Shown here: one piece after another, positions 42,711 to 64,000 of the stretch | Position numbering within the stretch: position 1 is the stretch's first letter | How the letters are laid out: each line of letters starts with the position of its first letter | Source of the DNA: Kaiparowitsia implicata GSE-PSE-MK54-09C | GTDB lineage: Bacteria; Cyanobacteriota; Cyanobacteriia; Elainellales; Elainellaceae | Assembly (NCBI GenBank): GCA_019359435.1 | Contig: JAHHHI010000063.1 | Location: 62,001 to 126,000, forward strand | DNA: 64,000 bases | Direction: 5' to 3' | The notes under the pieces: model-generated | Seen by the model: only the letters and a program-made list of their open reading frames with translations | Told to the model about the DNA's origin: nothing | The model's database searches: none | Position numbers and translations under genes: made by a program

Positions 42711-42834
42711 CCGTGCCGTTATCTGCTCCCTATACCGCTCTGGCTCGCCATTATCTCAGCGCTTTCCGGCAGAACATTCGCAGTTACCCCTATCTCACCC
42801 GTTAGCCGTGCCGTTATCTGCTCCCTATACCGCT
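42645..42834 (+). repeat. 95-bp tandem duplication at the brxE/brxA junction
   Basis: Bases 42645-42739 and 42740-42834 are the same 95-bp sequence, differing at one position (CCCTATTTC versus CCCTATCTC). Each copy holds the brxE end, its stop and the brxA start. As 95 is not a multiple of three, only the second copy's GTG is in frame with brxA. Confidence 0.92.
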
Positions 42835-47100: not shown

Positions 47101-47838
47101 CGCCTGGGGGGAGAAGACTCGGCCCTGTACGAAAACCTCAAGTGGGCCAGGGAGGTTGCCAAAGCCCTCGACAATGGCTTGGAAGGCACCATCCGCCAGC
47201 TCCAAGAGCATCAGCGAGAGATTAAGCAGCTCCCCAATGCGGGGGTGCCTGGTCAACTTCAGCAGGAGCTAGCGGAGGAGCTGAGCCATCTAGGGCAGCG
47301 GCTAAACCGGGATGACTTTTACAGCCACGGTGCAGAGTTCAATACGCTGCTGACCAAGATGCAGACCGGCGTGCGCGATGCGGTCAATGCGCTGAGTGAG
47401 CAGCAGCAGCAGCGGGTGAAGCAGGGGGCCAAGGATTTAGAGCTGCTGCCCGACTGGCAGGCCCTGACCGAAGAAGAGAAAAACAACATTCGCGCCGAGC
47501 TAGACAAACTGCTGAAGGGCAGCCCAGACAACCTGGCTGGCCTGCGCGACCTGATTGGGCGGGAATATTCCCTGAATATGACGGTGGAGCAGCAGAAGGG
47601 TAAGATTCAGCAGCTTGCCATTCAGCGACGGCAGGAGCAAGCTAAACCAGTTCCCATCGCTGGAGGCTCCAGTGTCCGAGAACTTGTCACCAGTTTTGAG
47701 CAGTCTCTAACTATCCCAGCTCGGATTCGGTCTGTGGAAGAGTTAGTTCGCCTACTAGCTCAGCTACAGCAGATTAAAGATTCCCTAGGTGGCTATGCCA
47801 AGATTGACATCTCCATCAGTATCCAAGAGCAGGAATAA
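44200..47838 (+). CDS. brxC: BREX P-loop ATPase BrxC
   Basis: A 1212-residue protein, typical BrxC length. It starts with the family pattern TIRTLFDPNRGLDRPIEKVI. Walker A GFYGSGKS lies at residues 73-80 and the HILFIIDEVGQYIA Walker B at about 252-265. The helical C-terminal part contains QLQEHQREIKQLPNAG and an LSEQQQQRVKQGAKDLELLPDW coiled coil. BrxC is a large AAA-like ATPase essential for both methylation and defence in BREX. It ends 9 bp before pglX. No damage is visible. Confidence 0.92.
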   Translation: MTIRTLFDPNRGLDRPIEKVITFAAKQEARLKAEISEYVVTDSIEDQFRKLLERMQLAMEAGGENETGVWVSGFYGSGKSSLTKYLGFAFDDRVQLDQVPFLKYLQDRFDTPQVKALLGTVAQRFPAAVVMLDLASEMLAGATMEDVSTVLYYKVLEWAGYSRNLKVATLERRIEQDERTEEFEATVKAQIPGMTWADIRNDPLAVDALIPQLAHEMYPALFPTPNAFSSSTDGFFQFEKDRVSEMIDLIRRKSGKQHILFIIDEVGQYIASRDNLILNLDGLAKNIKGQGDGKVWILATAQQTLTEDDPRASLNSDKLYKLKDRFPIQVDLEASDIKEICYRRLLGKSPSGEDALGQLFDTHGQALRHNTKLKDAKFYSADFDRTTFINLYPFLPAHFDILLRLLGALAKSTGGVGLRSAIKVIQDILIEEHNGHPPVADRTVGWLATTVTLYDSLEKDIRRAFPSVHYAAETTCTFYRDKPLHQEVAKSIAVLQILGNLPITVENVASLMHPAVDGVSRLEPVRQAVEAMLQEPQVPLSEKEGALSFLSEKLREIDVERSQIALRSVDVRSILNGGLRDSFDPLPRATLLGSLQVVTGLKVLSGSSVQGLAGDQHPVQTLVQFVDVTEYDAVRSATVEESRQRQAQTTIYALGRTDSEAQDLTEEIYRCQRIDELYRNDPDQEVRDYCKNQQVRAERLKITLQQKLQQSLYGGSFVFRGQMTGVSTLSQDLLESARKQLGEVADRVFDRYSEAPTRVETSQAERFLKQTNLSAITSALDPLDLVQVVSGQPQIQTSQKAIVSIRDYIDRNGTVEGKRLIDHFGDPPFGWSPDTLRYILAAMLVAGEITLRISGREVKAVGQQAIDALKTNKSFGKVGVGLRDYKPPMEVLGRACERLTELMGESVIPLEQDISKAALKQFPKYQRDFSPLSAKLAALGVAGADRLRSLTDELAEVLLSDASDAPERLGGEDSALYENLKWAREVAKALDNGLEGTIRQLQEHQREIKQLPNAGVPGQLQQELAEELSHLGQRLNRDDFYSHGAEFNTLLTKMQTGVRDAVNALSEQQQQRVKQGAKDLELLPDWQALTEEEKNNIRAELDKLLKGSPDNLAGLRDLIGREYSLNMTVEQQKGKIQQLAIQRRQEQAKPVPIAGGSSVRELVTSFEQSLTIPARIRSVEELVRLLAQLQQIKDSLGGYAKIDISISIQEQE

Positions 47839-47847
47839 CAGAGTTCC

Positions 47848-49905
47848 ATGGCGTTTGACCAAACGACTCGTAACCGACTACAGCGGTTTGTCAGCGATGG
47901 GCGATCGCTGTTAACCGAAGAGTTCACCCGCCAGCTTCAGAACGACTATGGACTGGATCCAATCGCTGGGGAGGTGACGATACTAGAGAACCTGGCCCAC
48001 CTGGACGATGGGCGGCGAGAGACAGCCCGTATTTTGCGGGCTACGCTGGCGCACTACCAGGCCAGCAGCCCAGAGGCCACCGTCAAAGACCTGCTAGAGC
48101 GGATTGTGCGAGAGCAGGCATTTACAGTGCTAAATCGGCTGGCGGCGCTGCGCATGGCCGAGGCCCGCGAACTGCTGATCGAGTCGGTGGCGGCGGGGTA
48201 TAGCTCCAAGGGGTTTCAGCTCTATGCACGGCTGGCGGGGACAGGGTTGGGGGAAACGGGCGATGCCTACCGCTGTTACCTGTTTAGTGTTTTTGATGAA
48301 CTGGCGCTGGATCTGGCGGTGCTGTTTGATCGGTTTTCGCCCATGGGGCGGCTGTTTCCCCGCGAATCTGCCCTGCTGGACTTGCTGAAGCTGCTGAATG
48401 ACCCGGAGCTGGCCGATCTGTGGGCCGAGGATGAAACCATCGGCTGGATCTATCAATATTTCAACTCGAAGGAAGAGCGCAAGCAAATGCGGGACGCCTC
48501 TGCGGCCCCTCGCAACAGCCGCGAACTGGCGGTACGCAACCAGTTTTTTACCCCCCGCTATGTGGTGGAGTTTTTGGTAGACAATACCCTGGGCCGCCTC
48601 TGGTATGAGATGACCCAGGGCGAAACTGCGCTGAAGGCAAGTTGCCAATATCTGGTGCGGCGTCCAACAGAGATTTTCTTGGCAGAGGGAAAAGCCGCTC
48701 CAGAGCCAACCGATACTGGAGAGGAGTTGAGCCAGGCAGACCTGCTGAAGCAGCCAGTACATATTCCCTTTCGGCCTCTGAAAGATCCTAGAGAGCTGCG
48801 GATGCTCGACCCGGCCTGCGGCTCAATGCATTTTGGCCTCTATGCCTTTGATCTGTACGAGCGCATCTATGGGGAAGCATGGGAACTGGAGCAGCAGTCT
48901 CGAAGGTTGACGCGCAGTGGGGAACTGAAGCCGCTGGCGAAAACCTACGACAGCAAAGAGGACTTCCTACGAGATGTGCCGCGTCTCATCATTGAGTACA
49001 ACATTCACGGCGTGGATATTGACCCCCGTGCGGCTCAGATTGCGGGGTTATCGCTGTGGCTGCGATCGCAAAAAAGCTGGCAAGCCCAGGGGCTCAAGTC
49101 CAAAGACCGGCCTCAAATTAGGCGCTCTAACATTGTCTGTGCCGAACCGATGCCTGGCGAAGAGGTGCTACTGAGCGAGTTCATTGAGACCTACCTCTCG
49201 GCCACAGCGGAGCAGCAGCTGGTGGGGCAACTGGTGCGGCGGGTATTTGCCGCGATGACGCTGGCTGGGGAAGCCGGATCGCTGCTACAAATTGAGCGAG
49301 AAATCAGTGACGACATTCAATCGGCTAAGCAGCAGTGGCTCAACCGCCCCGAAGGTGAACAGCTCAAGCTACTTGAGCTAGAGGCTGATCGCCCCAGGCA
49401 GCAGAGCCTGCCCCTGTCGGTGGAAGACATTACCGACGATCGCTTTTGGCTCAAAATCGAAGATGAAATCTACACCGCCCTAGAGCGCTATGCCGCCACT
49501 GCCGAGGGCACTGGACGGTTTCAGCGGCGGTTGTTTGCCGAGGATGCCGCCCGTGGGTTTGCTTTTATCGACCTGTGCCGTAAGCGCTACAGCGTCATGC
49601 TGATGAATCCGCCCTTTGGGGCTGGGAGCCTGCAAACTAAGTCGATGCTGGCGGTGGCTTACCCTCGCACCAAAAATGATGTCTATGCCGCTTTTGTGGA
49701 GCGGGGGCTGCAACTGTTGGAGGTGGCGGGCAACCTGGGGGCGATCACCTCGCGGACGGGCTTTTTTCTGTCGTCGTTTCAGAAATGGCGGGAGGAGATT
49801 TTGCTAAAAGAGGCTCAGCCGACGGTGTTTGCCGACCTGGGCTATGGCGTGCTGGATGCGGCTATGGTGGAGACAGCGGCCTATTGTTTGTCGAAGGTTG
49901 CCTGA
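47848..49905 (+). CDS. pglX: BREX methyltransferase PglX, N-terminal (catalytic) part of a split gene
   Basis: A 685-residue N-terminal portion containing the whole N6-adenine methyltransferase core. The SAM-binding motif DPACGS is at 321-326 and the catalytic motif NPPF at 587-590. It stops (TGA) just after the conserved LGYGVLDAAMVETAAYCL segment, where intact PglX proteins of about 1200 residues continue into FFRLLD. That continuation is found at 51545, after 1.6 kb of toxin-antitoxin genes. The methyltransferase half may fold alone; activity would require the C-terminal half made as a separate chain. It may have been split by insertion. Confidence 0.88.
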   Translation: MAFDQTTRNRLQRFVSDGRSLLTEEFTRQLQNDYGLDPIAGEVTILENLAHLDDGRRETARILRATLAHYQASSPEATVKDLLERIVREQAFTVLNRLAALRMAEARELLIESVAAGYSSKGFQLYARLAGTGLGETGDAYRCYLFSVFDELALDLAVLFDRFSPMGRLFPRESALLDLLKLLNDPELADLWAEDETIGWIYQYFNSKEERKQMRDASAAPRNSRELAVRNQFFTPRYVVEFLVDNTLGRLWYEMTQGETALKASCQYLVRRPTEIFLAEGKAAPEPTDTGEELSQADLLKQPVHIPFRPLKDPRELRMLDPACGSMHFGLYAFDLYERIYGEAWELEQQSRRLTRSGELKPLAKTYDSKEDFLRDVPRLIIEYNIHGVDIDPRAAQIAGLSLWLRSQKSWQAQGLKSKDRPQIRRSNIVCAEPMPGEEVLLSEFIETYLSATAEQQLVGQLVRRVFAAMTLAGEAGSLLQIEREISDDIQSAKQQWLNRPEGEQLKLLELEADRPRQQSLPLSVEDITDDRFWLKIEDEIYTALERYAATAEGTGRFQRRLFAEDAARGFAFIDLCRKRYSVMLMNPPFGAGSLQTKSMLAVAYPRTKNDVYAAFVERGLQLLEVAGNLGAITSRTGFFLSSFQKWREEILLKEAQPTVFADLGYGVLDAAMVETAAYCLSKVA

Positions 49906-50018
49906 GCATTCGCTACAAGGAGAAATTAACGGTGCCAGAACTCAATTGCTTACTTGTCAAATGTGAAGGCACAATTTCTGGATAACCTTACCCACCGCAG
50001 TGATGAGGAAATCGACCT

Positions 50019-50267
50019 ATGACAGCCATCCTTACCAATCATCCAATTGCTCAGACCTTTACGGCCATTCTGTATTGGGAAGAGGACGTTTACGTGGCAG
50101 AGTGCCCTGAGGTCGGTACCGCTAGCCAAGGTAACACTGTTGAAGAAGCCCTTGCCAATTTGCAAGAGGCGACTGAGCTATATCTTGAAGAATTTCCAAT
50201 GCCGACAGTAACCCGACGGTTGATTACGACGTTTGAGGTGCCCTATGCCCAAGCTGCCAAGGGTTAA
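50019..50267 (+). CDS. hicB: HicB-like antitoxin
   Basis: An 82-residue HicB-fold protein: FTAILYWEEDVYVAECPEVG, then ASQGNTVEEALANLQEATEL, the partial RNase H-like fold of HicB antitoxins. It lacks an obvious C-terminal DNA-binding domain, as in many short HicBs. GAGGAAAT precedes the ATG. It overlaps the downstream hicA by 23 bases. It probably neutralises the HicA RNase. It is the first gene of the block inserted in pglX. Confidence 0.8.
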   Translation: MTAILTNHPIAQTFTAILYWEEDVYVAECPEVGTASQGNTVEEALANLQEATELYLEEFPMPTVTRRLITTFEVPYAQAAKG

Positions 50268-50496
50268 AGCGAGTGAGGTAATTCGAGCGTTAGAGCGACT
50301 GGGTTTTGTACAAACCCGACAGAAGGGCAGCCATATTGTTATGAAAAAGAGAGTTTTTTTGCCTACAGAACCACCAGAGGAAATTGAAATTGGCTGTGTG
50401 GTGCCTTTGCATCAAAAAACGCTGGCCATTGGCACCCTAAAAAGTATCCTCAAGCAGGCGGGGGTTACTGTCGAAGAGTTTACGGAAAACCTATAG
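50245..50496 (+). CDS. hicA: HicA-like mRNA interferase toxin
   Basis: An 83-residue protein from ATG 50245. It has the double-stranded-RNA-binding-like HicA fold: VKASEVIRALERLGFV, then the GSHIVM motif with the catalytic histidine, and TLAIGTLKSILKQAGV. HicA toxins cleave mRNA and are held by HicB. Here the antitoxin precedes the toxin (hicB-hicA), the reverse of the classical order but common in cyanobacteria. A stretch FLPTEPPEEIEIGCV is a small insertion in the strand region. Confidence 0.82.
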   Translation: MPKLPRVKASEVIRALERLGFVQTRQKGSHIVMKKRVFLPTEPPEEIEIGCVVPLHQKTLAIGTLKSILKQAGVTVEEFTENL

Positions 50497-50503
50497 AGCT
50501 ACC

Positions 50504-50743
50504 ATGAGTTTAGTTATATCAGATGACATTATTAGGGCCAGTGGCTTATCCGAGGCCGAGCTTTTGCTGGAAATTATTGTCCTTCTATTTCAACAAGAGA
50601 AGCTGAGCTTAGGCAAAGCTAGCGAAATCCTCAGAATGCCTCAAATTCATTTCCAGAGATTGCTGGCTGATCGCGGAATCTGTGTTCATTATGATGTTGC
50701 CGATTTCCAGGAAGACTTGCAGCATCTCAGTGAAAAAGGCTAG
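50504..50743 (+). CDS. UPF0175 family antitoxin-like protein
   Basis: A 79-residue member of UPF0175, with the pattern SEAELLLEIIVLLFQQEKLSLGKASEILRM then FQRLLADRGICVHYDVADFQEDL. These small DNA-binding proteins normally stand before a PIN-like DUF3368 toxin. No such toxin follows; the next genes are an unrelated small gene and a TumE-like toxin. It is therefore an orphan antitoxin or serves another partner. It starts 7 bp after hicA. Confidence 0.8.
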   Translation: MSLVISDDIIRASGLSEAELLLEIIVLLFQQEKLSLGKASEILRMPQIHFQRLLADRGICVHYDVADFQEDLQHLSEKG

Positions 50744-50774
50744 CTATAAGGTCTTTGAGTGAAGGTGAAAATTG

Positions 50775-51038
50775 ATGAATAATCAACTGATTGATGGCTT
50801 AGTTCAAACAATACTTTCGCTCTCCCTAGAAGAGCGCCAACTACTGCTAAAGCGTATTCAAGACGCACAAACCCGTGATGAGATTCACCAAAAGCTGCAT
50901 CATTACGAGCAGCAGTACAGCATGACCAGTGAACAGTTTTATCAGCAGTTCTTAACGGGTGAGCTAGGAGACGCTGCCGACTATGTTGACTGGGCAGGCT
51001 TCTACGAAATGTTGCAGCCGCAGCCGGTGGCGAGCTAG
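50775..51038 (+). CDS. small protein, probable antitoxin of the TumE-like toxin
   Basis: An 87-residue acidic helical protein from ATG 50775. The N-terminal part (DGLVQTILSLSLEERQLLLKRI) resembles cyanobacterial antitoxin segments, and the C-terminal part (YVDWAGFYEMLQ) may cover the toxin. It ends 6 bp before the TumE-like gene and most likely encodes its antitoxin. No DNA-binding motif is evident. Confidence 0.55.
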   Translation: MNNQLIDGLVQTILSLSLEERQLLLKRIQDAQTRDEIHQKLHHYEQQYSMTSEQFYQQFLTGELGDAADYVDWAGFYEMLQPQPVAS

Positions 51039-51044
51039 ATAAAA

Positions 51045-51431
51045 ATGTCTCCCCCTGACTATCTGGCGACCATTAAAGAAGCTCTAACCCGCAGTCCGGT
51101 TGTGCAGGAGTGGATAATTGTCAACGAAGTGGCTTTATTAGAACGAGGGCACTTTCGGGTTCGACTGACTTTGTCGAATGGAGATTTTGTAGAAGCATCT
51201 GAGTTTTTCTATATCTGCAAAGATGGCATAGAGCAACAGCGCTACCGCTATCAGTGGATGGATGCTAAGCAACAGCAACTCAAAAAGCGTTGGGATAATG
51301 CGCCCCATTTCCCCAACATCGAGACGTTTCCCCACCATGTGCATGTCAATCAAGAAGACAACGTCTTACCCAGCCAGATGTTTGGTATTCCTCAACTGAT
51401 TACTCTCCTAGAACAAGAACTCTCTCCCTGA
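51045..51431 (+). CDS. TumE-like toxin (DUF6516 family)
   Basis: A 128-residue protein of the DUF6516 / TumE family. Typical features are the VNEVALLERGHFRVRLTLSNGDF-type strands, the FYICKDGIEQQRYRYQW segment and the HFPNIETFPHHVH motif with clustered histidines. TumE proteins are toxins of type II toxin-antitoxin systems. The small upstream gene is probably its antitoxin. It is the last gene of the block that separates the two pglX parts. Confidence 0.75.
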   Translation: MSPPDYLATIKEALTRSPVVQEWIIVNEVALLERGHFRVRLTLSNGDFVEASEFFYICKDGIEQQRYRYQWMDAKQQQLKKRWDNAPHFPNIETFPHHVHVNQEDNVLPSQMFGIPQLITLLEQELSP

Positions 51432-51544
51432 GTAGAAGTTGTCAGCGATCAGTGGCCAGTGATTAGTGGCCAGGTTGCTGATCTGCTCACTAGCCACTGC
51501 GCACTGATCACTTTCTTCCCACTGCTCACCGCAAGCTGCCGACT
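51432..51544. repeat. short repeat-rich spacer before the pglX C-terminal part
   Basis: A 113-bp spacer with the direct repeats ATCAGTGGCCAGTGATTAGTGGCCAG and inverted relatives (CACTAGCCACTG, GCACTGATCAC). Such TGATCAGTGG repeats are frequent between cyanobacterial genes. They may mark the right boundary of the inserted block. Confidence 0.55.
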
Positions 51545-53614
51545 ATGAACACCCTCTTCTTTCGCCTGCTCGATGCCGAAGACAAAGGCACCACCTTACA
51601 AGAAGCCATTGCTGCCTTGTCGCAGAACCCAACGCCAGAAGCATTTGCAGTGAATCCTGAATCGTTTGAGCAAGTGCCGGGAGCACCTTTTGCCTATTGG
51701 GTGAGTGATGCAGTTAAGAAGACGTTTAACAGACTACCTTTATTAGAAAGCGAAAGAATAAACGGAAGGGTTGGACTGCAATCATCTGATGATTTTAGGT
51801 TTTTACGCCTCAAGTGGGAAATAAATGGTTCAAGATGCTCGAAAACAGAAACTCATGGAGCTTGGTGTACCTTCGCAAAAGGAGGTGAACATTCTTATTT
51901 CTATTCTTTTCATCATTTGGTAATTAATTGGGGTATTGATGGAGAAGAAATTAAATCTTGGGCTGGCTCACTATACAACAAATCTCATTGGTCTAGAATA
52001 ATTAAAAATACCGACTTTTATTTTAGACCCGGTCTGACTTGGTCAAGCCGAACTACTAGTGGCTTGAGTGTTCGAACTATGCCTTCTCAATGTATTTTTG
52101 CTCATAAAGGGCCAGCTATTTTTATGAGAGGAGATAATTCATTAGACCTTTTATCATTACTATCTATTCTTAACAGCAAAGCTTTTCATTTACTCATTGA
52201 GCTTCAGCTCGCAGCAGCAGACGCAGCAGCACGTTCCTACGAAGTAGGTTTGCTTCAGCAGACACCTATTCCTCAATTCACTTTGGAATTAACTAAGAAA
52301 TTGGCGACTCTCGCTCGTCGCGCTTGGTCTCTCAAACGCAGTCTTGACACCATCACCCAAACCTCCCACGCCTTCATCCTTCCCGCCCTACTGCAAGTCC
52401 AGGGTGCCACCCTCAGCCAGCGCGCCCAAGCCTGGGCCACCACCGTCGCCACCACCGAGCAAGAGCTAGCCCAAATCCAAGCCGAAATCGATGCCCTCGC
52501 CTTTGACCTCTACGGCATCAGCCCCGAAGAAGTGGGGGTAGGAGAGCAGGCAGCAGGCAGTATGCAGCAGGCAGAAGGGGAGATAGAGCAGGCAGACTCC
52601 GAACTGCCCACTTCCGAAGACGACGAAGACGACACCACCGAATCCGCCGACCTCCCCTCCCTCGTCCATGGCCTGATCGAATACGCCCTCGGCGTTGCCC
52701 TCGGTCGCTTTGACCTCCGCCTCGCCACTGGCGAACATTCCCATACCCCCGAACCCGAACCCTTCGATCCCCTCCCCACCTGCTCCCCCGGCATGTTGGT
52801 CACCGCCGATGGCTTACCCCCCACTTCTGCCGAAGCACTGCCCCCCAACTACCCCATCGACATCCCCTTCAACGGCATCCTCGTAGACGACGAAGGCCAC
52901 CCCAGCGACATCATCACCCCCATCCGCCAGGTGCTCGACCTGATCTGGGGCGACCAAGCTGGCGACATCGAGCAAGAAGCCTGTCAAATCCTCAGAGTCT
53001 CCAGCCTGCGCGACTACATCGCTAAACCCAGCGCCTTCTTCGCCGAGCACCTCAGCCGCTACTCTAAAAGCCGCCGCCAGGCCCCCATCTACTGGCCCCT
53101 CTCCACCCGCTCCGGCGGTTACACCCTCTGGCTCTACTACCACCGCCTCACCGACCAAACCCTCTACACCTGCATCAACGACTTTGTAGAGCCCAAACTG
53201 CACCAGGTCAACCAGGCCACCACCCAGCTCCGCAGCCAAACCAGCCGCAACCGCGACGAAGACAAACGCCTCGAAACCCTCCAAACCCTAGAGCTAGAAC
53301 TCATCGACCTCCGCGACGAACTGCTCCGCATCGCCCAGCTGCCCTACAAACCCAACCTCAACGACGGCGTCCAAATCACCGCCGCCCCCCTCTGGCCGCT
53401 CTTTGGCCTCAAAAAGTGGCAGACCAAACTCAAAGACACCTGGAAGAAGCTGGGAAAAGGTGACTACGACTGGGCACACCTGGCCTACGCCATCTGGCCC
53501 GACCGAGTGCGCGAGAAGTGTAAGGGGGATAAGTCGCTGGCCATAGCTCATGACCTCGAAGCACTCTACGAGGCCCCGCCCGAGAAACCCAAAAAGAGCC
53601 GCCGCAAAGGTTAG
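51545..53614 (+). CDS. pglX: BREX PglX, C-terminal part of a split gene
   Basis: A 689-residue continuation of PglX. It starts NTLFFRLLDAEDKG, exactly where the N-terminal part stops, and continues through PGAPFAYWVSDAV, GLQSSDDFRFLRLKWE, WCTFAKGGEHS, FRPGLTWSSRT and RSYEVGLLQQTPIPQ, the specificity region of the BREX methyltransferase. A low-complexity acidic stretch near residues 334-375 is coded by GCAGGCAG-type repeats. The C-terminal part is GC-rich while 51720-52300 is AT-rich. No strong ribosome binding site precedes the ATG. It may be translated separately and assemble with the N-terminal half. Confidence 0.85.
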   Translation: MNTLFFRLLDAEDKGTTLQEAIAALSQNPTPEAFAVNPESFEQVPGAPFAYWVSDAVKKTFNRLPLLESERINGRVGLQSSDDFRFLRLKWEINGSRCSKTETHGAWCTFAKGGEHSYFYSFHHLVINWGIDGEEIKSWAGSLYNKSHWSRIIKNTDFYFRPGLTWSSRTTSGLSVRTMPSQCIFAHKGPAIFMRGDNSLDLLSLLSILNSKAFHLLIELQLAAADAAARSYEVGLLQQTPIPQFTLELTKKLATLARRAWSLKRSLDTITQTSHAFILPALLQVQGATLSQRAQAWATTVATTEQELAQIQAEIDALAFDLYGISPEEVGVGEQAAGSMQQAEGEIEQADSELPTSEDDEDDTTESADLPSLVHGLIEYALGVALGRFDLRLATGEHSHTPEPEPFDPLPTCSPGMLVTADGLPPTSAEALPPNYPIDIPFNGILVDDEGHPSDIITPIRQVLDLIWGDQAGDIEQEACQILRVSSLRDYIAKPSAFFAEHLSRYSKSRRQAPIYWPLSTRSGGYTLWLYYHRLTDQTLYTCINDFVEPKLHQVNQATTQLRSQTSRNRDEDKRLETLQTLELELIDLRDELLRIAQLPYKPNLNDGVQITAAPLWPLFGLKKWQTKLKDTWKKLGKGDYDWAHLAYAIWPDRVREKCKGDKSLAIAHDLEALYEAPPEKPKKSRRKG

Positions 53615-54923: not shown

Positions 54924-55835
54924 GAGGCTGTTTTAAAAGTCAGATTTTTGGTAGGAAAGCTCACACGGGAATAGGCTGGCAGTACGAAAACGTCAGCCCC
55001 GTATGAGCCATGAGCAAAGCCTACACCAGCAATCTCACCCGTGACCAGTTCGACCTGATTGCCCCCCTGCTGCCTGCGGCAAAACCCGGTGGCCGCCCAC
55101 GCAGCGTCTGTCTGTGGGTTATCCTCAATGCCATTCTTTATGTGGTTGTCCAAGGCTGTAAATGGCGAGACCTCCCTGCAGACTTTCCCGCTTGGTCAAC
55201 CGCCTACACCTACTTTCGCAACTGGCGCAAGGATGGCACTTGGCAGGTGGTTCATGACCGCATTCGGGGCTGGACAAGAGCCGATGCAGGCCGACCCGAA
55301 AGCCCCTCAGAAGCGATCATCGACAGTCAAACCGTTCCGACTTCCCCCATGACCAATCAGGCCGTAGGCTATGACGGCGCTAAGAAAATTAAGGGCCGTA
55401 AGCGCCACACTGTAGTGGATACCTTGGGTCTGGTAATGATGGTTGTCGTGACGGCGGCCAATGTCCCCGAGCGTCAGGGTGGGCAGCAAGCCCTCAGCAA
55501 ACTCAAAGGGCTCGTAGACCAAGTGAGTCGGCTCTATCTGGTGTGGGCGGATGGGGGCTATAGCGGTCAGCCCTTTATGAAATGGGTGATGGATAGTCTG
55601 GGGTGGGTGTTGCAGGTGGTGCTACGCTCGCAGGAGCGTCAGGGATTTGTCTTGCTCAAGAAGCGCTGGGTAGTGGAACGAACGTTTGGCTGGTGGCAGT
55701 GGTATCGGCGGTTAAACGTCGATTATGAACGCTTGCCTGAGAGTGCAGAGGCGATGATTCAGATCGCGATGATTCGGCTGATGCTCAGGCGGTTGGCCTA
55801 AATTGATACTGCACCCCACCTTTTAAAACAGCCTC
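54924..55835 (+). mobile_element. intact IS5-family insertion sequence with 3-bp target duplication
   Basis: Perfect 16-bp terminal inverted repeats GAGGCTGTTTTAAAAG at 54924-54939 and, inverted, at 55820-55835. They are flanked by TTA on both sides (54921-54923 and 55836-55838), a 3-bp TNA duplication as in the ISL2/IS1031-type groups of IS5. It is 912 bp long with one transposase gene. Intact ends suggest a recent insertion into the pglX-pglZ interval. Confidence 0.92.
55010..55801 (+). CDS. IS5-family DDE transposase
   Basis: A 263-residue complete transposase. The N-terminal DUF4096-type segment (TRDQFDLIAPLLP, then GGRPRSV) is followed by the DDE core. The first Asp is in IDSQTVPTS, the second in WADGGYSGQPF and the Glu in VVERTFGWWQWYRRL. 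It is coded in a single frame with no frameshift. The gene fills most of the 912-bp element and lies in the same direction as the BREX operon. Confidence 0.92.
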   Translation: MSKAYTSNLTRDQFDLIAPLLPAAKPGGRPRSVCLWVILNAILYVVVQGCKWRDLPADFPAWSTAYTYFRNWRKDGTWQVVHDRIRGWTRADAGRPESPSEAIIDSQTVPTSPMTNQAVGYDGAKKIKGRKRHTVVDTLGLVMMVVVTAANVPERQGGQQALSKLKGLVDQVSRLYLVWADGGYSGQPFMKWVMDSLGWVLQVVLRSQERQGFVLLKKRWVVERTFGWWQWYRRLNVDYERLPESAEAMIQIAMIRLMLRRLA

Positions 55836-56064: not shown

Positions 56065-56289
56065 ATGGAACAGGCCACCATAGAGCAAGCTCTCCTAGAG
56101 CAAGTTCGCGCCCTCACCCCCGCTCAACAGCAAGAAGTCCTAGACTTCGCCGCCTTCCTGCGCCAAAAACCGCCCCAACCCTCTCCCAAAGCTCGCACCC
56201 CTGGGCTTCACAAAGATGACTCATACTGGATGGCCGATGATTTTGACGATCCGCTGCCCGACGAGTTTTGGCTTGGTGAAGACGCATGA
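56065..56289 (+). CDS. vapB: VapB-like antitoxin (DUF2281 type)
   Basis: A 74-residue protein from ATG 56065, with AGGAGG at 56048-56053; an upstream in-frame ATG at 56020 lacks such a site. The N-terminal helix (EQALLEQVRALTPAQQQEVL) and DFAAFLRQK are typical of DUF2281 antitoxins. The acidic C-terminal tail (DDFDDPLPDEFWLGED) probably wraps the toxin. Its stop overlaps the start of the PIN toxin gene (ATGA). Confidence 0.82.
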   Translation: MEQATIEQALLEQVRALTPAQQQEVLDFAAFLRQKPPQPSPKARTPGLHKDDSYWMADDFDDPLPDEFWLGEDA

Positions 56290-56678
56290 AAATTCTACTC
56301 GACACCCATGCCTTTATCTGGTGGGACAGAGATACTGCCAAACTTCCAACGGCTACACTTGACCGCCTCCAGTCCCCTGAGAACCAAGTGCTGTTGAGCC
56401 TTGTTAGCCTCTGGGAAATTCAGATCAAACTTCAGCTCGGCAAGCTAACCCTCAGAGGTGATCTAGCCGATATCGTTCGGCAACAGCAGGCTGAGGGTAA
56501 TATCACCCTGCTGCCTATCGAGTTTTCGCATATTTTAGAACTTGAACAACTCCCCCAGCACCACCGAGACCCATTTGACCGCTTACTAATTTCCCAAGGT
56601 CGAGTTGAGTTGGCTGCTATTGTTACCCGTGATGCCATCTTTGAGAGCTACGACTGCCAAGTTCTTTGGCAGTCGTAG
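56286..56678 (+). CDS. vapC: VapC-like PIN-domain toxin
   Basis: A 130-residue PIN-domain ribonuclease. Acidic residues are conserved: Asp6 in LLDTHAF, Glu43 in SLWEIQIK, Asp in RDPFDRLLI and Asp in VTRDAIFESY. VapC toxins cleave tRNA or rRNA and are inhibited by the adjacent antitoxin. The pair sits between the IS element and the AlbA_2-PIWI gene, inside the BREX locus. Confidence 0.88.
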   Translation: MKILLDTHAFIWWDRDTAKLPTATLDRLQSPENQVLLSLVSLWEIQIKLQLGKLTLRGDLADIVRQQQAEGNITLLPIEFSHILELEQLPQHHRDPFDRLLISQGRVELAAIVTRDAIFESYDCQVLWQS

Positions 56679-56790
56679 CTCTAACCGAAAACCTAATCCC
56701 TATGCTCAATAGTCCAAGCTTGTTTCACTGTCTTTGCAAGTCGCTACACTAAGATTTATTTCCTTTGGCTCTAAAGCTGGATCTACGATA

Positions 56791-59700
56791 ATGCCTGACC
56801 CTAGAGACATTTTTGAGCACCCTATTAATCACTGGAACTTTCTCACAGCATCAGAAGATACAGAGTTTGAAGGGCAATATTTTGATCGCAAAGAGGCAGG
56901 ACGAGCAAAGCCAGGCAAGAACTTCAAAGATGCCGATCTGAATGGTGCGATTGATGGCATCAAGGAATGCATTTCAGCATTTGCCAACAAAAACAAGTCA
57001 GGAAGCTTATTAGTTATTGGCATTTCAAAAAAAGGTGAAGTTAAAGGACTTGGCCACCTATCTGATCCTCAAAGAAGTAGATTGACAGCTTTCAATGCTC
57101 TTTTATCCGATCAATCAGCTCAGGCAAAATTTTTCGAATGCACCAACGACTCTAAAAAGCAAGACTTTATTTGCTTGGTGTATGTGCCCTATACTTCACG
57201 GCGAATTTGCCAAACGCTAGGCAACCATCCTCGTGCATGGATAAGGCAAGGCACCCAAAATATCTGCCTTACCCAAGAACAACTAGAGCAGCTTCGAAGA
57301 GACAAAAAAGTTGTAGATTATGAGCAAGATGACTGCTGCTCCTATAATCCCAAGGATTTAGATAATGGAACTTTTCAAGAGTTCCGCAAAGCGTTTCTAT
57401 CCAACTCTTCCTACGAGTACGACAACGAAGAACTTCTCTACCAAATAGGAGCCATTAATCAAGATAACAGTGGCTATATTTTTACGAATTCAGGATATCT
57501 TTTCTTTTCTGCCAATCCACAGAGAGTATTGCCTGCATCCTATATTCGCCTGTTGAGGTTTGAGAGCAATATTGAAGATGGTGACAACAGAGGTTTGCCA
57601 ACATTTGACAAAAAATTTACAGGTTCAATCACCAAACAGATTAGGGATATTAGAACTTTTTTTAGAGAATCAGGTTTCTTCAAACTTTATCAGAGAAGAA
57701 ATGCTGACGGCGGCTTTATTGAAGAGCCTGAATATCCTTTCATCGCCGTTGATGAGGCAATCGTCAATGCAGTAGCCCATCGTGAGTATGCCATTGGACT
57801 GCCCATTGAGTGCTTCGCTTACAAAAACGCTTTTGTTGTCCAAAATTCGGGACGGCTTCAGCAAAGAGATAAAGATGTACCCGAATTTTTCTCTCTTGAA
57901 GAGACAAAGCTAAATTCCTCACCACGCAACCCAAAATTAATTGAGTGGTTAAAAATGATGCGCGATGAGCGAGGGGCCGAATTTGTGAGAGCCCTTAGCG
58001 AAGGAACAAAGCGTATGCGTGAAGAAATGAAGGCTTTGAACCTTCTAGCCCCAGAGTACAAAATAGGGGAAAGTCAGACAACGGTGATTTTGTTTAATAA
58101 AGCACAAGATCGGGAAACAGCTTTTCGCCTTAATAAGCAACAAAAAACCACTGAGTTTACTAATCTTTTCCTTCTAAACTTCATCTCTGAAGATTCGCAG
58201 ACTCTTAATCTTAGACAAGTTTCGCCTCACTATAAGACAATGATGGCCAGCCTGAGAGAAGTCCTTTCAAGCGAAGGATGGTATATAGACAGATTTAAAT
58301 TTGGTAGGCTTATAGCTCACCGGCAAGGCATACACATTCCTCTAAATCCGGAGGTCAACAAATTTATCAGATTCTATCCTGCCTATATTTTTCAAGTCAG
58401 GCAGTATTTTGGAAAATATTACTTATGTATTGACTACACCTTGGAGATTAAAAATATAAAAAATCTTTTTGAGTGTCTTGTGCATTTTTCGGCGGAGGAA
58501 TTAATTGATAGTTCAGCAGTTGTAAAATATGATGGATGGGAGCTAGGGAGAATCATCTCGATTGACTCTGAATGGACTGTCGTATACCTATTTGACTTTA
58601 AGCAAGAAGTTCAGGTCGCTACTAATAAAGTCATCCCCAACCTGACAAGAGCACAAATCGATAAAGTCTTGCAGGACTCTAACATCAAGTTTGATCTACC
58701 AAGAGCTATCAAGGAACATAGCTTGGCTCTAGAGCCTAGCTCTTCAAGAACTCGCTCTGAAAAAACACAGTCAGTCGCAAAAGATCTCGCGGCTGAAGTA
58801 TTTCCTTTGAAAATTAATGATTTCCTATGCTATTTGTCGCCGGAACCAGCACCTTTAAGTAGACGCCAAGCTTTTGTAGACAGCTTTCAGGTTCGCAGCA
58901 TCCCAGAGCCCGATGTTGAATTCAGTCATCATCGCGAATCCAAAGATATACGAATTGGGATAACTCAATTTGGATCTTACAGTGATGACAAAAAGACTAT
59001 TGAGATTGTTCCTATTTGTGGGTCAAGTTTACAAGGAGGCATGACTACATTAATCAACAGGCTTAAAACAGGAAAATATAAGTATCGTGGATCTGAACGT
59101 ACATTTAGTACCCGTCTGAATTATTCTTCAGTCATTACGCCTAGTTCGGTCAAAGATACACTCAGTGAGTGCAGTAGATTAATATCGGAGCATCCAGAGT
59201 GGCAAGGTAACGATGCACTTGATCGAATCTTTCTGATCCACATTCCTGAAAGAGGATATTCCATTGATGATGAATCTTCTCCTTATTATACTATCAAGAG
59301 ATTTTTATTCGAGAATGGCATCCCCTGCCAAATGGTTGACACATCTACTCTTCTTAATCCGGATTGGAAAGATCTTAATTTGGCTTTAAATTTAGTTGCA
59401 AAGTGTGGAGTTACACCGTGGGTATTGCCAGGAGCAATACCTGATGCCGACTTCTTTATTGGGCTCTCTTATACACAAAGTAGGCGAGGGGACTATGATC
59501 GACTGATGGGATACGCAAACGTATTTGATCAATATGGTAAATGGCAATTTTATTCTGGCAACACCGACGCTTTTCCCTACATTGAAAAGACGAAATATTT
59601 TGAAGAACTGATTGAGGAAACCATTCAGAAGCTATCTTTATCTGAAACACCAAGTATTTATTTTCACTACTCTGCCAAGTTTTCTGGAGAGGACAGATCT

Positions 59701-60159
59701 GCCATACTAAAAGCCGCCCGGAGAGTTAAGCCACAAGGAAAATATTCGTTCATTTGGATAAACTCTCATCATAACGTGAGGCTTTATGACAGCCGAGCAG
59801 AAGGAGATGGTAGCTTGAGTAGAGGAGATTACTTTATTGCATCTCCAAATCAAATTTATCTCTCAACCACAGGATTTAACCCTTACAGAAAGGCACTTGG
59901 AACTCCCCTAATGCTTGAAATAAATACGAGGGTTGAGTACCCAGAAAATACTCCGAATCCTCCTCCTGACTTAAAGGCCATTGCTGCTCAGATACTAAGT
60001 CTTACAAAACTTAATTGGGGATCTACTGATTCTCTATGTGGCGAACCTATAACAACTAAATATGCAGGTGATATTGCATATTTAACATCTGCTTTCTTGA
60101 GGCAAGGATCTTCGTTTAAGCTCCACCCTGCGTTAGAAAGAACACCATGGTTCATCTAG
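56791..60159 (+). CDS. AlbA_2/Schlafen-like + HATPase_c_4-like + Argonaute-like (MID-PIWI) fusion protein
   Basis: A 1122-residue protein from ATG 56791; a TTG at 56734 is a less likely start. An AlbA_2 domain (about 25-170) shows FDRKEA and the GSLLVIGISKKGEVKGL strand-turn. A HATPase_c_4-like domain of the RecG-related type (about 190-450) has EAIVNAVAHREY at 322-333. Residues 480-800 may hold Argonaute N/L-like parts. The MID domain shows YTIKRFLFENGIPCQ with Tyr833, Lys836 and Gln847, plus Lys871 in VAKCG. The PIWI domain follows (FIGLSYTQ, SIYFHYSAK, QILSLTKLNWGS, KYAGDIAYLTSA). Catalytic Asp sites read Ser893 and Ser961, so slicing is unlikely. AT-rich relative to flanking pglZ. Confidence 0.8.
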   Translation: MPDPRDIFEHPINHWNFLTASEDTEFEGQYFDRKEAGRAKPGKNFKDADLNGAIDGIKECISAFANKNKSGSLLVIGISKKGEVKGLGHLSDPQRSRLTAFNALLSDQSAQAKFFECTNDSKKQDFICLVYVPYTSRRICQTLGNHPRAWIRQGTQNICLTQEQLEQLRRDKKVVDYEQDDCCSYNPKDLDNGTFQEFRKAFLSNSSYEYDNEELLYQIGAINQDNSGYIFTNSGYLFFSANPQRVLPASYIRLLRFESNIEDGDNRGLPTFDKKFTGSITKQIRDIRTFFRESGFFKLYQRRNADGGFIEEPEYPFIAVDEAIVNAVAHREYAIGLPIECFAYKNAFVVQNSGRLQQRDKDVPEFFSLEETKLNSSPRNPKLIEWLKMMRDERGAEFVRALSEGTKRMREEMKALNLLAPEYKIGESQTTVILFNKAQDRETAFRLNKQQKTTEFTNLFLLNFISEDSQTLNLRQVSPHYKTMMASLREVLSSEGWYIDRFKFGRLIAHRQGIHIPLNPEVNKFIRFYPAYIFQVRQYFGKYYLCIDYTLEIKNIKNLFECLVHFSAEELIDSSAVVKYDGWELGRIISIDSEWTVVYLFDFKQEVQVATNKVIPNLTRAQIDKVLQDSNIKFDLPRAIKEHSLALEPSSSRTRSEKTQSVAKDLAAEVFPLKINDFLCYLSPEPAPLSRRQAFVDSFQVRSIPEPDVEFSHHRESKDIRIGITQFGSYSDDKKTIEIVPICGSSLQGGMTTLINRLKTGKYKYRGSERTFSTRLNYSSVITPSSVKDTLSECSRLISEHPEWQGNDALDRIFLIHIPERGYSIDDESSPYYTIKRFLFENGIPCQMVDTSTLLNPDWKDLNLALNLVAKCGVTPWVLPGAIPDADFFIGLSYTQSRRGDYDRLMGYANVFDQYGKWQFYSGNTDAFPYIEKTKYFEELIEETIQKLSLSETPSIYFHYSAKFSGEDRSAILKAARRVKPQGKYSFIWINSHHNVRLYDSRAEGDGSLSRGDYFIASPNQIYLSTTGFNPYRKALGTPLMLEINTRVEYPENTPNPPPDLKAIAAQILSLTKLNWGSTDSLCGEPITTKYAGDIAYLTSAFLRQGSSFKLHPALERTPWFI

Positions 60160-60203: not shown

Positions 60204-62723
60204 ATGAGTATTGCTGAATATATCCGAGACGATATCCTCAAACTTCGCCTTAAGGCAGAGTGCCTGGTCGTCTACGACCAAGACCAGCGCTATCGCGACA
60301 TCTGCCTAGACCTAGCCGAAGAGCAGGTCGCCGTCATCGATACCTCAGCCAGCAGCATCGAAAGCCGCGAGCAGGCCCAAGCCGCCTTTCTCAAAGTCGC
60401 TAGCGGCAGCCTCAAAGGCATGGTTGTCTACATCCCTACCGCTGCCCCCGCCACCGATGAGCAACGGCAAAAAGACCCCTTCGCCATCTACGTTCAATGC
60501 GGAGCCCAGTTCCCCGATAGCGACGGTGACGAATACTTCAACCTCTGCCTAAAAGCCAAGCCCGAGCACAACACCGAAATTCGCCGCATCTTCCAAAACA
60601 ACCCCAATCCCCCTTTTGCCACCGTCGATGCCGTCGGCGGTGGCATTAGCTGGCCCCAACTGCGGGCTACCCTCCAGGCCGACTCCGCCGTCGATATCCT
60701 GATCGCCTTTCTCGTACCCACGGAAGCACAGCAGCATGCACTTAAAACCGAGACCGGCTGGTTGCCAGAGGCCAAAGACTTCTTTAAAGCCACCCTTGGC
60801 CTTACCCTCAAAACCCGAGCCAAATCCTGGAGCCCCATCGCCGAAGAGCTATGGCGCTTTGTGCTGTTTAGTGAATTTGTCTTTGACCTGCCCGTACCGT
60901 TGCCAGAAGCCCTCCAGGCGGTTCCCTATGGCCCCCCTGAGGCCGAAGTGGTAGTGTGTGACCTGTGCGATCGCCTACGCAACGACCAACGCTACCAAGA
61001 AGCCTACATAGAGCGGGCAGAAGCCATCGAAGCCGAGCTAAACTTGCCCCCTATCTGTGCTGACATTGACGATCTCGGTCAGCTCAACACCTTTCCCTTT
61101 GAAGAGAGAACCTTTCTCCAACGAGCCGTTCAGGGCATTGTTGCCAACGACCTAGACATTACCCGCGACCTGCTGACCCGCCACAGCCAATCGATCTGGC
61201 GCAGCAAGGGAGAAAACCAAGAGCAGTGGTCACTACTTCAAGCCGCCCTCAACCTGATCGTCATCTGCGAAGACGTTGACCGGCAGTTGCCTGAGTTTGG
61301 CCGCAGCCAGGAGAGCTTAATCAATGCCTACGTTGAGAGCCTGCGCCAGGTCGATCAGCGCCAGCGAGAGCTAGAAGAAAGCGTCGGCAATGCGATCGCC
61401 CTCAGCGATTCCCTTGATGCTGTTTTAGACGCCGCCCGTAGCTGCTACCGGCGGCTGACCGAAAAAGTTCAGGCGCTGTTTACGCGGCAGCTCGAACCCA
61501 GCGGTTGGCCCCCAGCGGGCCGTCTAACCAACACTGAAGTCTTTAAGCGGTTTCTGGCCCCCCGACTCAGCGAGAAAGGGCAGCGCATTGCCTACCTGAT
61601 GATTGACGCCCTGCGCTACGAGCTGGGTGCTGAGCTAGAAAAGCTGCTGACCGAAGTCGGCATCGTCGAAATGCATACCGCCTGTGCCCAGTTACCCACC
61701 ATTACCCCGGTAGGTATGGCCAGCCTGCTGCCCGACGCCCACAACAGCCTCACCTTAGACATCGAGCAGGGCAAGCTGGTGCCCAAAATCGGCGATACAG
61801 TCGTCAGCAATGTGACCCAGCGGATGGGGTACTTAAAAAAGCAATTTGGCGATCGCTTCACCGAGATGACCCTAAGAGATTTCATCACCAAAAAGAATCC
61901 CAGAGTTGAGCCCACCGTTGATTTGCTGGTGCTCCGCAGTACCGAGATCGATAGCCAGCTAGAGTCTAACCCCGAAGACACCCTGAGCCTGATCCCCAAA
62001 ACCCTTAAGCAAATTCGTGTAGCGCTAACCAAGCTGGCCAAACTCGGCTTTCAGGAGGCCATCATCGTTAGCGATCACGGATTCTTTCTCAATGCCCAGG
62101 CCGAAGCAGGGGATGTCTGCACCAAACCCCAGGGCAACTGGCTCTACACAGCCCACGATCGCATGTTGCTGGGCAACGGTACCGCCGACGCTCACAACCT
62201 GGTGCTGAGTGCTGATAAGCTCGGCATTCGCAGCAACGCCGCCCAGGTTGCCCTGCCAAAAACCATGGCTCCCTACCGGGCCGGGCATCTCTATTTCCAC
62301 GGTGGTGCTTCTCTGGCAGAGGCGATCGTGCCCGTCTTGGTCGTGCGTTTAGACAGTGAACCCGTAGAAAAGCTGGAACAGTTCCAGGTAGAGCTGAGCT
62401 ACAAGCGCGGCTCCAAACGGATTACCACTCGCCTCCCCCGCATAGAACTCTCTCTGCTGGCAGGCAATCTATTCTCCCAAGCCAGCGCCTGCGAATTGCT
62501 TCTAGAGGCCCAAGACGCCCAAGGGGAGGTAGTGGGCGAACCGCGCCCCAGTGAAGACGTCAACCCTGCCACCAGGACGATTACCCTATTCCCTGGGGAA
62601 ACCAAGCAAATCGTGCTGCGGATGGATGCCATGTTTGAGGGTAAGTTTACTGTGAAGGCTCTCGACCCGAACACCCTTAGAACTTACGCTAGCCTCAATT
62701 TAGAAACCGACTACACGGTCTAG
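60204..62723 (+). CDS. pglZ: BREX alkaline-phosphatase-superfamily protein PglZ
   Basis: An 839-residue PglZ of the BREX-1 type. The phosphatase-fold domain (about 435-720) carries YLMIDALRYELG (metal-binding Asp), TITPVGMASLLP, VLRSTEID and IIVSDHGFF (Asp-His), then HDRMLLG and HLYFHGGASL. The N-terminal part (1-400) is helical, and a C-terminal beta-rich domain ends in TYASLNLETDYTV. PglZ is a core BREX component required for methylation and exclusion. It starts 44 bp after the AlbA_2-PIWI gene and ends 5 bp before brxL. No damage seen. Confidence 0.92.
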   Translation: MSIAEYIRDDILKLRLKAECLVVYDQDQRYRDICLDLAEEQVAVIDTSASSIESREQAQAAFLKVASGSLKGMVVYIPTAAPATDEQRQKDPFAIYVQCGAQFPDSDGDEYFNLCLKAKPEHNTEIRRIFQNNPNPPFATVDAVGGGISWPQLRATLQADSAVDILIAFLVPTEAQQHALKTETGWLPEAKDFFKATLGLTLKTRAKSWSPIAEELWRFVLFSEFVFDLPVPLPEALQAVPYGPPEAEVVVCDLCDRLRNDQRYQEAYIERAEAIEAELNLPPICADIDDLGQLNTFPFEERTFLQRAVQGIVANDLDITRDLLTRHSQSIWRSKGENQEQWSLLQAALNLIVICEDVDRQLPEFGRSQESLINAYVESLRQVDQRQRELEESVGNAIALSDSLDAVLDAARSCYRRLTEKVQALFTRQLEPSGWPPAGRLTNTEVFKRFLAPRLSEKGQRIAYLMIDALRYELGAELEKLLTEVGIVEMHTACAQLPTITPVGMASLLPDAHNSLTLDIEQGKLVPKIGDTVVSNVTQRMGYLKKQFGDRFTEMTLRDFITKKNPRVEPTVDLLVLRSTEIDSQLESNPEDTLSLIPKTLKQIRVALTKLAKLGFQEAIIVSDHGFFLNAQAEAGDVCTKPQGNWLYTAHDRMLLGNGTADAHNLVLSADKLGIRSNAAQVALPKTMAPYRAGHLYFHGGASLAEAIVPVLVVRLDSEPVEKLEQFQVELSYKRGSKRITTRLPRIELSLLAGNLFSQASACELLLEAQDAQGEVVGEPRPSEDVNPATRTITLFPGETKQIVLRMDAMFEGKFTVKALDPNTLRTYASLNLETDYTV

Positions 62724-62728
62724 ATCCC

Positions 62729-64000
62729 ATGGATAAGCTTGATCTACAGCTCAACGACATCTTTGAGGGCAAGGTTGTCCGCAAAGACTTGCTGCACCGG
62801 ATCAAGAAAGGCACCAACGTTCCCACCTTTGTTTTAGAGTTTCTCCTGGCCAAATACTGCGCCAGCGACGATCCCATGGAAATCGATGCCGGGATGGAAG
62901 CCGTGTTGGCCACCCTCCAAGACAACTATGTCCGACCTGACGAGGCGAATGCCGCCCAGTCTAAGGTAGCGACCAAAGGGCACTACCGCTTCATCGACAA
63001 GGTTCATGTACGCTACGTCGAAAAAGAAAAGCGCCACTGGGCGGCCCTAGAAAACTTCAATTCCCAACGCATTGCCGTTAGCCAACAGTTCTATCGAGAC
63101 AACGACCGCATGTTGGAAGGCGGCATTTGGGCTGAGGTCACTGTCGCCCACAATGCTATTGAAGAAGACGACTACGCCTTTTATATCGAAGACCTACGCC
63201 CCGTTCAGCTCAGTCGTTTTAACTTCGAAGCCTATGCCGAGGGCAGTGAAGTCTTCAGCCGTAATGAATGGGTAGACATTATCCTGCGCACTGTCGGGCT
63301 TGAGGCGACCAAGCTATCTCCACGGCAACGGCTCCACTACATTGCTCGCCTCGCCCCGCTGGTCGAGCCCAACTACAACTTTATTGAATTGGGGCCGAGG
63401 GGCACCGGGAAATCTTACTTTTTTAGCGAGTTCTCCCCCTATTCCACATTGGTCAGCGGTGGCCAAGCCACCAAAGCTACCCTGTTCTACAACAATGCTC
63501 GGGGCAAAGTCGGCCTGGTGGGTTTTTGGGATACCGTGGCCTTTGACGAAGTCGGCGGCATCAAAATCAAAGATCCCGACACCATCCAAATTATGAAGGA
63601 CTTCATGGCCAACGGACGGTTTTCCCGTGGGGTAGAAATTATTGCCGATGCCAGTCTGGCCTTTGTCGGCAACATCGACATGTCGGTGGAGCAAATCGTC
63701 AACTCTAGCCAGTACGACCTCTTTCAGCCCCTCCCCAGCCAGTTTGACCTAGCTGTGATGGATCGCTTCGCCTGTTACTTACCCGGCTGGGAGATGCCGA
63801 AGAACAGCAGCGAATACCTGACCAACAGCTATGGCTTCATCACCGACTATCTAGCTGAAGCCTTTCACTATGCCTTCCAGCACACCAACCGCTATGAAGA
63901 AGTCACCAAGCGCATTCGTCTCGGTTCAGCCGTAGAAGGTCGAGATGAAAAGGGCATCAAGAAAACCGTGGCGGCTTTCCTGAAGATCCTGCATCCATCC
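62729..64000 (+). CDS. brxL: BREX Lon-like protein BrxL (cut by window end)
   Basis: The first 424 codons of BrxL; family members have about 680 residues. It begins with the family pattern LNDIFEGKVVRKDLLHRIK and NVPTFVLEFLLAKYCA. An AAA+ core follows, with Walker A GPRGTGKS at 222-229 and the VAFDEVGGI Walker B at about 272-280. The C-terminal Lon-like part lies outside the window. BrxL is a DNA-stimulated AAA+ protein of BREX type 1 that acts in phage exclusion. Its presence alongside BrxE is unusual. Confidence 0.92.
   Translation, partial: MDKLDLQLNDIFEGKVVRKDLLHRIKKGTNVPTFVLEFLLAKYCASDDPMEIDAGMEAVLATLQDNYVRPDEANAAQSKVATKGHYRFIDKVHVRYVEKEKRHWAALENFNSQRIAVSQQFYRDNDRMLEGGIWAEVTVAHNAIEEDDYAFYIEDLRPVQLSRFNFEAYAEGSEVFSRNEWVDIILRTVGLEATKLSPRQRLHYIARLAPLVEPNYNFIELGPRGTGKSYFFSEFSPYSTLVSGGQATKATLFYNNARGKVGLVGFWDTVAFDEVGGIKIKDPDTIQIMKDFMANGRFSRGVEIIADASLAFVGNIDMSVEQIVNSSQYDLFQPLPSQFDLAVMDRFACYLPGWEMPKNSSEYLTNSYGFITDYLAEAFHYAFQHTNRYEEVTKRIRLGSAVEGRDEKGIKKTVAAFLKILHPS

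Follow-up and report, generated by a model that had tools for sequence, protein, structure and literature searches.

A predicted guide-binding, cleavage-dead long Argonaute fused to a Schlafen-HATPase module in an exchangeable slot of a cyanobacterial BREX locus

Long-B prokaryotic Argonaute (pAgo) systems have been described as target-activated effector systems, in which guide-directed recognition leads to abortive infection (PMC10620215). Besides these systems, proteins combining a Schlafen domain, a minimal histidine-kinase-like domain and a winged helix-turn-helix (Schlafen-HATPase-wHTH) are linked to bacteriophage exclusion (BREX) and BREX-related loci in at least 1017 taxa and have been proposed to be backup RNases (PMC12839542, 2026). 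Here, we describe a gene located in a BREX locus of the cyanobacterium Kaiparowitsia implicata GSE-PSE-MK54-09C, in a stretch of 64,000 nucleotides (contig JAHHHI010000063.1, positions 62,001 to 126,000; hereafter the window). Its analysis supports a fusion protein in which a long Argonaute, predicted to bind guides and to be dead for cutting, is joined to a Schlafen (AlbA_2)/HATPase module.

An earlier annotation made from the letters of this DNA (the original prediction) had proposed such a fusion and knew of no described system with this architecture. The latter claim does not stand: AlbA_2 domains fused to several long-B pAgos were reported by Ryazansky et al. (2018; PMC6299218), and the PADLOC profile PDLC02394 ('pAgo') spans the 1121-amino-acid architecture and aligns end to end with the fusion protein (1912 bits). 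The protein type is thus already catalogued; the present analysis adds the BREX slot, the HATPase part and the RNase reading, whereas the label given in PMC6299218 is DNA-binding. The BPAN, BPAS and BPAM systems (Song et al., 2023; PMC10620215) likewise rely on a dead long Argonaute sensor acting via an effector, which is encoded there by a separate downstream gene (nuclease, SIR2 or membrane protein); here, the next gene is pglZ and the effector would be the fused Schlafen module. The words Schlafen and AlbA do not occur in the main text of PMC10620215. The proteins of PMC12839542, whose main text contains no match to Argonaute, PIWI or Ago, carry a wHTH where an Argonaute follows the HATPase part in our protein. 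DIP2311 (PDB 3lmm) has the AlbA_2-HATPase fold in common with the N-terminal module, the only part that was aligned, in a chain of 492-583 residues without an Argonaute part. Finally, BrxU of pEFER is also an accessory defence gene inside a BREX operon that provides complementary defence (PMC8565348) but, unlike the fusion gene, it encodes a Type IV restriction enzyme and sits between brxC and pglX. Our literature search, with preprints and most subscription papers outside its reach, retrieved neither a functional study of an AlbA_2-Argonaute fusion nor a description of an Argonaute located within BREX.

The open reading frame (ORF) extends from 56734 to 60159 on the + strand. Its ATG at 56791, favoured by the alignment of the 12 full-length family members, gives a protein of 1122 amino acids, in agreement with the gene limits first proposed. 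The features of the gene are the following:

56791 to 60159, + strand: Schlafen(AlbA_2)-HATPase-long Argonaute fusion gene, 1122 amino acids (profile searches and family alignment)
56869 to 57261, + strand: AlbA_2/Schlafen core, residues 27-157, with candidate catalytic residues E27/D32/K34 (Pfam, conservation, fold)
57490 to 58119, + strand: HATPase (GHKL-like) region, about residues 234-443, N-box E322/N326/H330 (Pfam, conservation, fold matches)
58252 to 60153, + strand: long-type Argonaute lobe, residues 488-1121 (PADLOC Class II pAgo profile, positions 81-723 of 724)
59284 to 59403, + strand: motif of the MID pocket for the guide 5' end, Y832/K836/Q847/K871 (invariant in 12/12 members; alignment with 15 other Argonautes)
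59467 to 59469, + strand: S893, replacing the first PIWI catalytic aspartate (family and Argonaute alignments)
59671 to 59673, + strand: S961, replacing the second PIWI catalytic aspartate of the original prediction (family and Argonaute alignments)

The assignment of the C-terminal part to the MID/PIWI type is borne out by profile searches and by solved structures. The PADLOC Class II pAgo profile (PDLC02379) aligns with residues 488-1121 at an E-value of 6e-34 and is matched by all 12 members, in keeping with a long, N to PIWI, architecture in which PAZ is not resolved separately. Many further pAgo profiles of PADLOC match the same part of the protein. Sequence searches of the PDB retrieved the short pAgo 8fex and CpAgo and, with the family profile, RsAgo (5awh; E 3e-10), the region matched by these Argonautes covering about residues 824-1098. 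The Pfam Piwi model counts against the Argonaute call, since it reaches E 0.01 in only two of the 12 members, the window protein not being among them.

The four residues of the MID pocket (Y832, K836, Q847 and K871) are invariant in the family. The original prediction had placed the tyrosine at position 833; K836, Q847 and K871 stand, but the tyrosine fits better at Y832 (Y-x3-K836), which is conserved in 12/12 members and in 13 of the 15 other Argonautes, whereas Y833 is replaced by F in two members. Both PIWI aspartate sites had been said to be serines, and S893 and S961 are indeed found in every member, with G or R in the third PIWI column compared. The 15 Argonautes used for comparison comprise 11 cyanobacterial controls, which we took as long-A on the basis of their length and aspartates, and four plasmid-borne proteins (L038-L041). 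All 11 controls have D in the S893 and S961 columns (10 of them also in the third one), and the plasmid-borne proteins lack D in the former two. Since the MID pocket is kept and the PIWI aspartates are lost, the Argonaute part is predicted to be a guide binder that does not slice.

The N-terminal part was correctly recognized as an AlbA_2/HATPase module, and the FDRKEA (AlbA_2) and EAIVNAVAHREY (HATPase box) motifs are both present in the protein. Pfam SLFN_AlbA_2 matches residues 27-157 with an E-value of 1e-9, exceeding the family cut-off, and HATPase_c_4 matches residues 368-434 slightly below its own (E 5e-5, 23.6 bits versus a cut-off of 26); each of them reaches E 0.01 in 12/12 members. 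A model of residues 1-450, computed from a 34-sequence alignment, has a mean predicted local distance difference test score (pLDDT) of 88.9 and a predicted template modelling score of 0.67. Its best solved match is DIP2311 (3lmm; Z 22.3 over 380 residues), followed by SAMD9, with structures 7ksp (in complex with DNA, Z 11.4) and 9o0d (titled tRNase domain, Z 10.9), by SLFN14, SLFN11, SLFN5 and SLFN13 (Z 9-10) and by other Schlafen entries (Z 7-9). Residues from about 234 to 443 match histidine-kinase-type ATPases at Z of about 7, a level also reached by common arrangements.

The E-x4-[D/E]-x-K motif of this module is intact, with E27 and D32 in 12/12 members and K34 also kept. In alignment A6 (34 rows, seven of them from the fusion or N-module family, L077 being left out), E27 and K34 are present in the 33 rows with a letter there, 26 of which have D at residue 32 and the other seven E. 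The comparison with other bacterial Schlafens (19 loci tried, giving 18 rows, one of them gapped) recovered E27 and K34 again, with E at position 32 in 17/17 rows with letters there. E27 and D32 correspond to the first two of the three acids of rat SLFN13 according to motif spacing and alignment, not to superposed coordinates. In rat SLFN13, mutation of any of the three acids lowers the activity, and cleavage is abolished when the first or the second is changed to alanine (PMC5862951).

On this fusion, its residues and the fold of its N-terminal module, we favour, with slightly less than even confidence, a single protein that acts as a guide-directed sensor, activates a Schlafen RNase and serves as an interchangeable BREX accessory. 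By homology, the cleavage-dead C-terminal Argonaute would bind a short 5'-phosphorylated guide, probably RNA, and once loaded would recognize matching invader nucleic acid. Recognition would be relayed to the fused Schlafen-HATPase module, which, once activated, would cleave RNA, tRNA or another structured RNA being the most likely substrate, and would halt growth or kill the infected cell. The fused module would thereby substitute for the effector (nuclease, SIR2 or membrane protein) that other long-B Argonautes have as a separate gene in their operons. Whereas the fusion, its residues, the N-module fold, the constraint and the slot are results of computation, the guide type, the RNase action, its gating and the role in defence are inferred: because long-B pAgos work through effectors (PMC10620215) and Schlafen-HATPase proteins were proposed as backup RNases in BREX (PMC12839542), a guide-directed Schlafen RNase switch appears the most likely explanation. 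In favour of it, a long pAgo of Shewanella that also matches the Class II pAgo profile is followed downstream by a gene for a restriction nuclease.

Several observations weigh against this explanation. The rmsd (root mean square deviation) of the N-terminal model to 3lmm is 15.6, so that the domain arrangement differs. No match was obtained for the gene that lies downstream of the long pAgo of Adhaeribacter (L038). A 27-row tree, drawn without a reference long-B such as RsAgo, sets the fusion family apart from the 11 controls taken as long-A, but as long branches join in it, the exact position of the family, and with it the long-B membership, is uncertain. The full-length AlphaFold model (5 rows) has a mean pLDDT of 35.3 and nothing was drawn from it; as this model failed, no contact between the Schlafen and Argonaute parts was seen. 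Of the three Schlafen acids, the last (D248 in rat SLFN13) is lost, residue 79 being S in 11 members and A in one (the column is likewise unconserved in the other bacterial Schlafens compared), and SLFN5, which retains both key acids, does not cleave the tRNAs tested (PMC5862951). Furthermore, the best SAMD9 match of the module is the DNA-bound structure, and AlbA_2 was read as DNA-binding by Ryazansky et al. (2018). The lost acid, the DNA-bound match and this annotation would also fit an AlbA_2 module that only binds nucleic acids, the protein then imposing a guide-directed block on the replication or transcription of the invader with no nuclease step, much as RsAgo suppresses plasmid-encoded expression in a heterologous host (PMC10620215). 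We consider this rather unlikely, given that the two acids essential in SLFN13 are kept in all members and that the tRNase domain of SAMD9 and RNase Schlafens are among the structures matched by the fold.

The family comprises 12 distinct full-length members with both parts in all of them, contrary to what would be seen if the two parts were never linked, and their identity to the window protein ranges from 47 to 95 percent. They are encoded by the window genome (G000), G820, G864 (= L032), G590 (= L033), G710, G464 (= L034), G197, G431, G450, G527, G729 and a Rubrobacter radiotolerans plasmid, all but the last being cyanobacterial (equalities between L and G handles are based on identical contig coordinates). 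Three other copies were kept outside the alignment: that of G595, in two pieces on two contigs with an internal stop, and those of G484 and G606, which are truncated where their contigs end. At E 1e-60 or better, the gene is sporadic, being detected in one of 36 genomes of the window's order (the window's own), in 5 of 388 genomes drawn from the class, own genome included, and in 9 of 388 drawn from the order of G197, fragments and broken copies counted. Neither the window protein nor alignment A1 retrieved a relative from IMG/VR; the mixed alignment A5 retrieved 31 loci, including a full-length fusion (L075) and one whose frame ends early (L074). Besides its full-length copy, G450 encodes an N-module-only protein (L035, same gene as L055/L063; 74 percent identity to the window's module over 446 residues) with an unrelated tail of about 104 amino acids. 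In L035:10001-13000, this gene is followed by a hypothetical ORF and then by an ORF that, judged by eye, looks like a TIR protein. No split version, in which an AlbA_2 gene would neighbour a separate pAgo of the same type, was seen among the loci collected for this comparison, and the ORF lists of the fetched neighbourhoods, read by eye, showed no recurrent neighbour gene, as expected for a self-contained effector.

Both parts of the protein are under strong purifying constraint. The ratio of non-synonymous to synonymous divergence (dN/dS) between the window and G820, the nearest copy, is 0.071 overall, with 0.091 for the N-terminal and 0.061 for the C-terminal part; it is 0.17 between G197 and G431 and 0.10 between G864 and G590, pairs with G710 being not fully computable due to an ambiguous base. 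A decayed gene was rejected with dN/dS at about 0.07.

The BREX locus of the window has the order brxE-brxA-brxB-brxC-pglX (split)-slot-pglZ-brxL, with an adjoining MobF relaxase gene:

39253 to 42018: MobF relaxase/TraI gene, adjoining BREX
42213 to 42710, + strand: brxE-family gene
42580 to 43596, + strand: ORF containing brxA (match from residue 82)
43499 to 44167, + strand: ORF containing brxB (match from residue 33)
44200 to 47838, + strand: brxC
47848 to 49905, + strand: pglX, N-terminal half
51545 to 53614, + strand: pglX, C-terminal half
55010 to 55801: IS4/5-type transposase gene (about 0.9 kb here missing from the G820 copy)
56286 to 56678, + strand: PIN-domain gene, directly upstream of the fusion gene, likewise in G820
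60204 to 62723, + strand: pglZ, 44 bp past the fusion gene
62729 to 64000, + strand: brxL, extending beyond the window end (691 amino acids in L043)

We call this locus type 1-like on the basis of BrxL and of the best PglX model; PglX and PglZ score below the NCBIfam cut-offs and the best fit of PglZ is the type 6 model. BrxL (window 62729 onward; L043:730-2805) carries a C-terminal phospholipase-D-like (MIT_C) domain. The fusion gene had been placed between pglX and pglZ, which holds for pglZ, its direct neighbour, but on the other side pglX consists of two ORFs and a gene for 210 amino acids, the insertion sequence and the PIN gene intervene. Small toxin-antitoxin-like genes (TumE in the window) lie between the pglX halves (47848-53614). 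The split looks established, as it is also found in G820 and G729 (L066, L069), with other small genes between the halves; between the window and G820, the C-terminal half evolves faster (dN/dS 0.32) than the N-terminal half (0.08).

The comparison of related loci agrees with the view of an embedded gene. In G820 the same element is found, with each of its genes matched at 74-97 percent and the fusion gene 43 bp before pglZ. The same BREX is present in G866 (PglZ 97 percent; BrxL 98 percent over 526 residues; on the contig, PglX-C 96 percent over 269 residues), where DNA similarity to the window ends at 54721 and resumes at 60204; instead of the fusion, the slot (L106:4413-8994) holds genes for a dynamin-like GTPase and a weakly JukB-like protein and two unknown genes. 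The slot of G753 (PglZ 68 percent) contains a PIN gene and a PD-DExK-like gene, and that of G729 (PglZ 69 percent) only a 95-amino-acid ORF. For this reading of the slot, the G825 contig ends too early, and the distant BREX loci of G805, G417, G770 and G900 (PglZ 25-26 percent) were set aside. In G197, the fusion gene borders another type of BREX: it lies 0.95 kb from, and divergent to, a gene run that leads into a BREX-3-type PglZ locus and passes an AddA-like protein with a fused BrxF domain, a brxC-like gene being 7.5 kb away. This AddA/RecB-like helicase-nuclease (L036:15024-18851, 1275 amino acids), just before the BREX-3-type locus, has its BrxF domain at the C-terminus (152 bits).

One may ask if the fusion is a working part of BREX, its guide steering PglZ, PglX or BrxC to their targets. 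The gene precedes pglZ by 43-44 bp on the same strand in two genomes and borders a second BREX type in G197. From the window to G820, its synonymous sites have diverged (0.348) about as much as those of brxC (0.352), of the PIN gene (0.337) and of the N-terminal half of pglX (0.301), the value being lower for pglZ (0.255) and higher for the C-terminal half of pglX (0.528), so that the fusion gene seems to have moved together with this BREX after the two copies separated. However, the related slots of G866, G729 and G753 lack the fusion, and no match to PglZ was obtained in seven of the 11 whole genomes that carry a full-length copy, which makes a working BREX part very improbable; an obligate link to BREX was rejected on the same count. 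PglZ is thus matched in 4/11 of these genomes, as compared with 55 of 376 genomes drawn from the class (51 above cut-off). In three of the four PglZ-positive genomes the fusion gene is in or beside BREX, two of the three being the same element. Among genomes with broken copies, G595 has a PglZ fragment and G484 and G606 have none; no PglZ was found in Rubrobacter, of which the plasmid only was searched. As a feature of mobile defence cassettes the association is thus real, without being obligate, and BREX is an optional setting.

The MobF neighbours suggest conjugative spread. The Schlafen-Argonaute gene of G729, about 53 kb from BREX on the same contig, is also beside a MobF-like relaxase gene, another one, as is the BREX locus of the window. 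MobF relaxase genes near the fusion in the window, G820 and G729, its presence on the Rubrobacter plasmid and the triggering of the long-B system BPAN by a plasmid origin (PMC10620215) could point to a guard or regulator of mobile elements, involved in plasmid competition or copy control rather than in anti-phage defence. This seems to us improbable: in L034 the fusion follows rbcL-rbcX-rbcS (recognized by eye), a chromosomal-looking place, and such a role is compatible with defence rather than exclusive of it.

Returning to the guide-directed RNase switch, the fusion would be carried by a mobile, type 1-like BREX locus in the position ahead of pglZ and would add a second defence layer, without being part of BREX chemistry. 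A more specific form of it, a single-chain guide-programmed tRNase in which the dead Argonaute switches on an ATP-sensing Schlafen and which, as a BREX plug-in and last line of defence, would fire once a phage defeats BREX, is doubtful on present evidence. With such a switch, two antiviral themes, guide-directed Argonautes and translation-stopping Schlafens, would be united in one polypeptide, which would be a compact guide-programmable RNase. The exchangeable slot before pglZ also offers a natural experiment on how BREX loci acquire back-up effectors.

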